Positions 10,970 through 12,451 of a stretch of 33,824 nucleotides of DNA are shown here, one piece after another. Source of the DNA: Candidatus Saccharimonadota bacterium. Its GTDB lineage: Bacteria > Patescibacteriota > Saccharimonadia > Saccharimonadales > EFPC-124. Numbering within the stretch: position 1 is the stretch's first letter; the number at the start of each line of letters is the position of its first letter. The notes under the pieces were generated by a model. It saw nothing but the letters and a program-made list of their open reading frames with translations. It made no database searches and was not told where the DNA came from. Made by a program: the position numbers and the translations under genes. Location of the stretch: assembly GCA_029288315.1 (NCBI GenBank), contig JARIHL010000011.1:1-33824 (forward strand), read 5' to 3'.

Positions 10970-11911
10970 ATGAAAATCAGCCGAAGATTCGTAAGGGCCG
11001 GTGTTTTACTAGCCGCTCTGGCCGTAGGTGTCGGCACGACTGTTGGATGCAGCACCACCACTCCGGAAGCGATGTGTGCTTTCGTGGTGGGCGACGGCCA
11101 GGCGGGCAATGATGCCAAGCTGCACCGAGTGGTGCAGCCCGGCGAGAGCATTGGCGAGAGCACTGGTGAGATCGTTCGTTTTGTACCATGCAACTCGCGC
11201 AACTACAAGATCAACGACGGCACCGTGGTCAATGCCAATAAAGAGCAGGTTGGCGACCGTTTCGTGCCAACTCTCGCTTACACCCGGGATGGCACGCCAA
11301 TCTCGATATGGACTGACTCGTACTGGACATTGAACCAGAACGAAGCAATTCTCGAGAAATTCTATGAGCTGTGCTACAAATACAGTTGCTACAGTGAATC
11401 GCGAGAAGGTGGTGCTGCCAACTACTCCACGCCTGGCTGGAATGGTATGCTTGGCGAAAACTTCGGCCCGAACATCGACGATATCGCTATTGAGGCAGCA
11501 AGTCTGATCAGTGACGATATCTGGCGCAACCAGGATGCAGGCCTACGCGATGAACTCGGCGACAAGATGTCCGCGCTCTTTGCGGCAAACATGCGGGAAA
11601 AGTTTGGGTACGCCGAAGATTTCTTCTGTGGTTCCGGCAACTCTGGTTTCAATCCAGACGGCACCTACAACTGCACGCAGGTGCGTGTGGACGTAGTGCG
11701 CGTAGACCGATACGTACCAACGACAGAGGAAGCTGCATCAAATCCTGATGCCCAGGCCCGGCTCAATGCTGAACGTCTGCGGGTCGCTGAAGCGCTCTAC
11801 GGCCCTTCAGCAGGTTACTGGCTGGGTGTACAGGACAGCATCAACGCCTGCCGGAATGCTCAGACACCTTGCCAGATCATGATCGGTCAGGTTCCTGTGC
11901 CGACTGGTTAA
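10970..11911 (+). CDS. Putative lipoprotein of unknown function
   Basis: 313 aa; N-terminal signal and lipobox-like VGTTVGCS; possible SPFH-like C-terminal part (weak impression only). Confidence 0.75.
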   Translation: MKISRRFVRAGVLLAALAVGVGTTVGCSTTTPEAMCAFVVGDGQAGNDAKLHRVVQPGESIGESTGEIVRFVPCNSRNYKINDGTVVNANKEQVGDRFVPTLAYTRDGTPISIWTDSYWTLNQNEAILEKFYELCYKYSCYSESREGGAANYSTPGWNGMLGENFGPNIDDIAIEAASLISDDIWRNQDAGLRDELGDKMSALFAANMREKFGYAEDFFCGSGNSGFNPDGTYNCTQVRVDVVRVDRYVPTTEEAASNPDAQARLNAERLRVAEALYGPSAGYWLGVQDSINACRNAQTPCQIMIGQVPVPTG

Positions 11912-11921
11912 TCTGAAATGA

Positions 11922-12050
11922 TCCTATCGTGCGAATAGGAACTGCTGCGCTGATAAGCGCCGCATCGCACTGGCCGGGATGAGCCACTAATCATCCTTGC
12001 GAGGGCGCCCGTGCCCGTAGCCGATAAAGCTACGGGCACGCGGCTCCTCG
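11922..12050 (+). ncRNA. Chain of predicted RNA hairpins upstream of the hammerhead ribozyme (unknown structured RNA/UTR)
   Basis: HP1 TCCTAT/ATAGGA (11922-11940), HP2 TGC-t-GCGCT/AGCGC-c-GCA (11943-11964), HP3 GGATGA/TCATCC (11977-11996), HP4 CGTGCCCGTAGC/GCTACGGGCACG (12010-12040). Confidence 0.55.
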
Positions 12051-12051
12051 A

Positions 12052-12108
12052 TTGACTCCATAGATGTAAACGAAGCTATGCTGATGAGCCGTAGACGGCG
12101 AAAGTCAA
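12052..12108 (+). ncRNA. Hammerhead ribozyme, type III (stem III open)
   Basis: Stem III UUGAC (12052-12056)/GUCAA (12104-12108); U16.1-H17 = UC (12057-12058); stem I CAUAG (12059-12063)/CUAUG (12076-12080); core CUGAUGA (12081-12087); stem II GCCG-UAGA-CGGC (12088-12099); GAAA (12100-12103). Confidence 0.9.
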
Positions 12109-12190
12109 GAAATTAGTTTAGCAGAACACTGCTCTCTATGTTATTATTATCTCTTCTCATGTCTAGCACCGAGCTACGAGGAGGCAAAAG

Positions 12191-12415
12191 ATGGCCAAGG
12201 GTGACAACGAGATCACTCCCGATGACATTCAGAAACTTACACCTGCAGATATTGAAGGAGACGAAATTCTCTTAAAGGCACTGTTTCGAAAAGTTGCGAG
12301 TGACCCTCAGGCTCTGGAGAAATTACTCACCGAGGCGGTTCGGAGGAATCCAGCGCTCAAGCGACGTCTCATTGGTATCATCCGCAAGAAGAAAAGAAAG
12401 CGTAAGGCTAGGTGA
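12191..12415 (+). CDS. Small protein with strongly basic C-terminal tail (74 aa)
   Basis: Strong SD GAGGAGG; ends RRLIGIIRKKKRKRKAR. Confidence 0.75.
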   Translation: MAKGDNEITPDDIQKLTPADIEGDEILLKALFRKVASDPQALEKLLTEAVRRNPALKRRLIGIIRKKKRKRKAR

Positions 12416-12423
12416 TGAGAATC

Positions 12424-12451
12424 GGTTGGGCGGCAGGCCTGCCGCCCAACC
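12424..12451. terminator. Perfect 28-bp palindrome between convergent genes (bidirectional terminator)
   Basis: GGTTGGGCGGCAGGCCTGCCGCCCAACC followed by ATATCGTTTT. Confidence 0.75.

Follow-up and report, generated by a model that had tools for sequence, protein, structure and literature searches.

Type III hammerhead ribozymes with an adjoining GC-rich stem as candidate mRNA 3'-end elements in Saccharibacteria

The window, the whole stretch of 33,824 nucleotides that was analysed, corresponds to contig C37 in a draft genome (G000) of 1.2 Mb that is 94% complete. By inspection, the genes of the neighbourhood are chromosomal housekeeping genes, with tyrS, clpC, nusA and dnaE nearby and no prophage. 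The features considered here are collected in Table 1. They lie in and around the 279 nt that separate two co-directional genes, of which only the second is followed by a terminator. The predicted lipoprotein encoded by the first gene has no Pfam match and no relative in 60 members of the order or in the genome contig collection, and the protein encoded by the second has no relative in 20 genomes. A DNA search with the sequence between the two genes (11912-12191) in 60 relatives found no intergenic homologue; besides the genome's own copies, it returned one chance match in a relative's coding sequence.

Table 1. Features of the locus (positions in the window)
Feature	Position	Strand	Basis
Predicted lipoprotein gene, 313 aa, orphan	10970..11911	+	ORF
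HP1, claimed hairpin, not predicted to form	11922..11940	+	pair probability 0.01-0.02 in the 11912-12058 ensemble
HP2	11943..11964	+	pair probability 0.98-1.0 in the 11912-12058 ensemble
HP3	11976..11997	+	pair probability 0.99-1.0 in the 11912-12058 ensemble
HP4 in full, member of the recurring stem-beside-ribozyme element	12000..12050	+	stem 12000-12021 / 12029-12050, loop 12022-12028
Type III hammerhead ribozyme	12052..12108	+	sequence; covariance model R1; family covariation
Weak promoter-like site, possible start of the next transcription unit	12118..12147	+	consensus scan, 9/12
74-aa orphan gene, ribosome-binding site GAGGAGG	12191..12415	+	sequence
Intrinsic terminator behind the 74-aa gene	12424..12451	+	terminator scan

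The initial annotation placed a hammerhead ribozyme downstream of the lipoprotein gene, and this identification holds: judged by its sequence and by the covariation of its family, the element is a real hammerhead of type III. Stem III (12052-12057/12103-12108), stem I (12059-12063/12076-12080) and stem II (12088-12091/12096-12099) enclose the core segments CUGAUGA (12081-12087) and GAA (12100-12102), and the cut is predicted between C12058 and C12059. The full core consensus is present (UUGACU/AGUCAA, CUGAUGA, GCCG/CGGC, GAAA and NUC), and the type III catalytic core (CUGANGA ... GAAA ... UH, with the A15.1-U16.1 pair) spans 12057-12103. The family resembles Rfam RF00008 (Hammerhead_3) in its core (CUGANGA, GAAA, NUH), its three helices and its open stem III. 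It differs from RF00008 in that its copies score below the Rfam cut-off and are found in chromosomal 3' UTRs, not in satellite or viroid RNA. None of the six genome copies reaches the RF00008 gathering cut-off of 48.5 bits, which is a detection threshold and not a biochemical feature; the best scores 45.4 bits and the window copy 13.3 bits, and three have E values of 4.6e-9 to 4.6e-6 yet remain below the cut-off. An Rfam scan of the window and of 14 loci likewise called no hammerhead at gathering level. Because none passes this cut-off, annotation pipelines would miss these hammerheads.

Using the core pattern and then a covariance model (R1), we identified five canonical type III hammerheads in the window genome, on contigs C2, C6, C12, C17 and C37. 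R1 was built from these five copies, so that the window hammerhead, which scores 70.6 bits, is one of its training sequences. Contig C45 carries a sixth hammerhead (L022 1490-1542) with the core CGGATGA, changed at U4; it adjoins a perfect 14-bp stem and is likely inactive or altered. R1 matches were found in 79 of 295 genomes of the order, with up to 19 copies per genome, and in 33 of 380 genomes drawn from the phylum. The exact core pattern occurs in at least 117 stretches over all genome contigs, and samples only part of the family because its stem II is fixed; among the listed matches, nearly all that are named are Patescibacteria (Saccharibacteria, Parcubacteria and Microgenomates groups). 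The same list holds oddities in bins named Polynucleobacter, Smithella and Phycisphaerales (L096, L177 and L082), which may be misplaced Patescibacteria contigs or true transfers. In a second set of loci, drawn mostly from named genomes, a strict motif search produced 112 matches, against none in reversed sequence.

Comparison of 70 loci, in an alignment fitted to the model, demonstrates a ribozyme family at the level of sequence. In the helices 97.9% of cells are paired, while slid controls fall to 29-50%, and 325 cells are compensatory versus 97 in shuffles; double changes occur at 13 of 15 pairs, and stem III is open. The full core is kept in 65 of the 70 members. The loops AAUGYGUAUU (loop I) and NAAA (loop II) look conserved, by inspection only. 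In viral contigs (IMG/VR), two core patterns were found in 0 and 4 contigs, respectively. One viral contig, IMGVR_UViG_3300042472_000140, carries an R1 match of 46 bits (L199 4081-4133).

Between the lipoprotein stop codon and the ribozyme, four tandem hairpins had been proposed as a single chain. All of the named motifs are found where they were placed: TCCTAT 11922-11927 / ATAGGA 11935-11940 for HP1, GCGCT 11947-11951 / AGCGC 11956-11960 for HP2, GGATGA 11977-11982 / TCATCC 11991-11996 for HP3, and CGTGCCCGTAGC 12010-12021 / GCTACGGGCACG 12029-12040 for HP4. The stretch 11912-12058 folds at -72.2 kcal/mol, compared with -48.2 kcal/mol for shuffled sequence (z = -5.85; 0 of 200 shuffles as good). 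In the predicted ensemble the pairs of HP2, HP3 and HP4 have probabilities of 0.95-1.0, so that these three hairpins should form, whereas HP1 should not. Moreover, HP1-HP3 have no counterpart at other loci or in relatives, and the chain is therefore not supported as one unit; HP2 and HP3 are local additions. HP4 is indeed GC-rich and in its described place, but its 12-bp core is only part of it: the lower part extends to CGAGG/CCTCG, the symmetric stem search described below gives 22 columns, the full stem has a folding energy of -39.3 kcal/mol, and it ends 1 nt before hammerhead stem III. Since the full stem reaches this far, the predicted tail after cleavage is 8 nt and not the 18 nt originally given. 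Perfect 12-bp hairpins are not rare in themselves and occur at about eight places in the window. No U-tract stands directly behind HP4, where the sequence after 12050 is ATTGACTC, and the terminator scan calls nothing at HP4.

What HP4 shares with other loci is its place beside the ribozyme. The 90 nt on the 5' side of the ribozyme have a mean fold z of -4.3 (below -2 in 60 of 69 loci). The 3' side has a mean z of -0.8, and other genes' 3' ends in these genomes, which also bear hairpins, -2.0 (p = 1e-9). The last paired base lies a median of 2 nt from the ribozyme, for a predicted tail of about 9 nt across loci. For a closer comparison we used a symmetric stem search that scores G-U and A-C alike and is stricter than a lenient version, which gave long stems in control windows too. 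Of 70 loci, 57 had a stem scoring at least 9 on the upstream side; on the downstream side 9 of 69 did. Among the upstream stems there are 100 G-U against 36 A-C combinations (p = 4e-8). Such a bias would be expected of RNA from the ribozyme strand but not of a DNA palindrome, and it indicates selection on the stem as RNA, in the same sense as the ribozyme. The adjoining stem is less general across the wider Patescibacteria set (score at least 9 in 43 of 88) and the downstream control shows some G-U excess too (47 versus 22 A-C), but strong stems within 3 nt of the ribozyme again prevail upstream (26 of 43, versus 3 of 28 downstream; p 2e-5).

One stem subfamily, to which the C6 copy in the window genome belongs, has the arm GUCUGCUUGUCA in common between unrelated genes and genomes. 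The homologous 12-bp stem of this subfamily has seven pairs with double changes, a number reached in 1 of 500 shuffles; the arms were picked as the best complement, which favours pairing, and the shuffles address co-change and not arm choice. Outside this subfamily the stems share no loop sequence.

The ribozymes also occupy a consistent position relative to genes, as called by a simple coding-score script rather than a dedicated gene finder. The upstream gene is co-directional in 63 of 69 loci (p = 4e-13) and in 80 of 84 loci of the second set (p = 2e-19). The distance from stop codon to ribozyme has a median of 106 nt and falls between 50 and 150 nt in 45 of 63 loci. The downstream gene, by contrast, points either way (38 co-directional and 26 convergent, of 64), so the ribozyme is not a 5'-UTR element; convergent genes often end less than 20 nt from it. 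Within 125 nt after the hammerhead, a TANAAT box on the sense strand is present in 25 of the 38 loci with a co-directional downstream gene, and over all 69 loci such boxes number 30 on the sense and 13 on the opposite strand. Taken together, orientation, stop distance, downstream genes and TANAAT boxes assign the ribozyme to the end of the upstream unit. On comparative sequence evidence, what recurs is thus a single strong stem immediately followed by a hammerhead, the two standing just behind a stop codon.

Under a strict scan, only 7 of 69 ribozymes have an intrinsic terminator behind them, but such terminators are scarce after other genes as well. As the scan finds neither enrichment nor depletion behind ribozyme-bearing genes relative to others, it gives no support for a replacement of terminators by the ribozyme.

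The upstream proteins are mutually unrelated except for three pairs, and they are mostly orphans: a Pfam match was obtained for 7 of 46, versus 8 of 20 control neighbours (p = 0.05). Two of the 46 have a Pfam match to Tad4, an anti-Thoeris protein of a phage counter-defence family (best E 3.2e-34); they are probably the products of two related genes just upstream of hammerheads (L054 9217-9549 and L044 1657-2061). The orphan character of these genes, together with the stem sequence that one subfamily has in common behind unrelated genes, is what would be expected if palindrome and ribozyme were a DNA-level mobile or recombination site (an integron attC-like site, transposon end or retrozyme) travelling with orphan genes and serving no host gene. 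We regard this as extremely unlikely, because G-U exceeds A-C as for RNA on the ribozyme strand, compensatory changes maintain the ribozyme helices in nearly all copies, and the ribozyme's orientation towards the gene hardly ever varies. An integron attC site or cassette was rejected on the same wobble asymmetry, which is unexpected for a folded single-stranded DNA palindrome. A viroid-like or retrozyme tandem element was rejected too, as the other copies stand behind unrelated genes on other contigs and a search with the 280-bp query turned up no further full-length copy in the genome.

We consider it probable that the lipoprotein mRNA has a 3'-end cassette made up of HP4 together with the hammerhead, which delimits and stabilises the message through self-cleavage. 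RNA polymerase would pass the stop codon and transcribe first the stem and then the ribozyme, which would cut itself after C12058. The upstream mRNA would then end in a GC-rich stem followed by 8 nt and would bear a 2',3'-cyclic phosphate in place of a 3' hydroxyl, while the downstream RNA would begin with a 5'-OH and would be separately transcribed or degraded. PNPase is phosphorolytic, needs a 3'-OH and stalls at stable stems, and poly(A) polymerase likewise needs a 3'-OH. The combination of stem and cyclic phosphate should resist both PNPase and poly(A) addition, and we propose that this is how the message is delimited and stabilised. Cleavage in the cell, the stabilising effect and what becomes of the downstream RNA are inferred.

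The nuclease repertoire of the window genome bears on this scheme. Its only processive 3' exonuclease detected is a 716-aa PNPase-like protein with two RNase_PH domains (contig C73); neither RNase II/R (RNB, PF00773) nor RtcB (PF01139) was detected in this 94% complete genome. A PNPase-like protein in the company of neither an RNB exonuclease nor RtcB favours protection of the end and speaks against circularisation by RtcB; a circular mRNA formed by that enzyme was accordingly set aside.

A different outcome of the same cut, the splitting of a polycistronic transcript into separate mRNAs with different fates (here the lipoprotein and the 74-aa messages), seems to us unlikely. The arrangement of the two genes at this locus, co-directional with a terminator only after the second, is in its favour, and Perreault et al. 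(2011, PMC3088659) proposed this kind of transcript processing for clusters of hammerheads in prophages. However, 26 of 64 downstream genes are convergent, a -10-like box of its own often follows the ribozyme where the downstream gene is co-directional, and the strong adjoining stem is on the 5' side only.

The earlier suggestion that the ribozyme produces a stable mRNA 3' end is well supported by comparison, in that a single strong stem stands directly 5' of a hammerhead just past the stop codon of dozens of unrelated genes; the recurring unit is this pair of stem and hammerhead and not the whole four-hairpin chain. The pattern suggests that Saccharibacteria form some of their mRNA ends by RNA self-cleavage. 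Somewhat more speculatively, and just short of what we would call probable, hammerheads in Patescibacteria may serve chromosome-wide for the protein-free formation and protection of the 3' ends of selected accessory mRNAs, with stem and self-cleavage standing in for terminator and end-trimming where 3' exonucleases are reduced to PNPase.

Several known systems share parts of this arrangement. An intrinsic (Rho-independent) terminator leaves a similar GC-rich stem followed by some 7-9 nt, as at the predicted mature end here, but the present element has no U-tract, and its end would arise by RNA cleavage with a cyclic phosphate and not by polymerase release. The glmS ribozyme is also a self-cleaving element in a bacterial mRNA; it acts in the 5' UTR, where its cleavage is controlled by a metabolite and makes the message less stable, whereas the predicted cleavage here would fall in the 3' UTR. 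In the prophage clusters several hammerheads stand beside unrelated, often hypothetical genes (PMC3088659), as they do here. The hammerheads described here differ in being chromosomal among core genes, consistently at 3' ends, and in having a strong stem directly against the 5' end of the ribozyme. A prophage cluster was rejected for the window because its genes are chromosomal housekeeping genes and viral contigs are nearly devoid of the core patterns.

Among open papers, we found none that pairs hammerhead ribozymes with Saccharibacteria or Parcubacteria, none that pairs self-cleaving ribozymes with TM7, and no report of a chromosomal 3'-end use of hammerheads across Patescibacteria. What hammerheads do in bacteria has been described as an open question ever since they were discovered (PMC6155905). 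The observation is of interest because it is general across loci, and the consistent context (past a stop codon, with a 5' stem selected as RNA) allows the question to be put directly: do hammerhead cuts define mRNA ends? If so, bacteria would possess a route to mRNA 3' ends that depends on a ribozyme. The question is testable, since Saccharibacteria are cultivable and genetically tractable (PMC10633639).

Finally, the ribozyme could release or mature a discrete non-coding RNA (11912-12058) that acts in trans. At this locus we hold this to be very unlikely: the strong folding of the stretch would fit such an RNA, as would a structured stretch of about 550 nt preceding the C17 copy and the hammerhead arrays with no called ORFs between them on Parcubacteria contig L092, but no homologue exists in 60 relatives, and at most loci the roughly 100 nt from stop codon to ribozyme are filled by a stem that shares no loop sequence outside the one subfamily.

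Both of these other loci merit a brief description. The C17 stretch (L016 6182-6736, minus strand) is strongly folded and has no called gene; it is flanked by a 440-aa orphan gene on one side and by the C17 hammerhead on the other, upstream of pyrG, and together with the ribozyme has a fold z of -4.2. On L092 (2475-3825 and 5889-6527; Parcubacteria S40-23), eight strict hammerheads, and more by model, form an array with a spacing of about 90-440 nt, in which most gaps have no called ORF. A short GC hairpin precedes each hammerhead, and repeated structured stretches lie between them, so that the array looks like a set of ribozyme-delimited non-coding RNAs.
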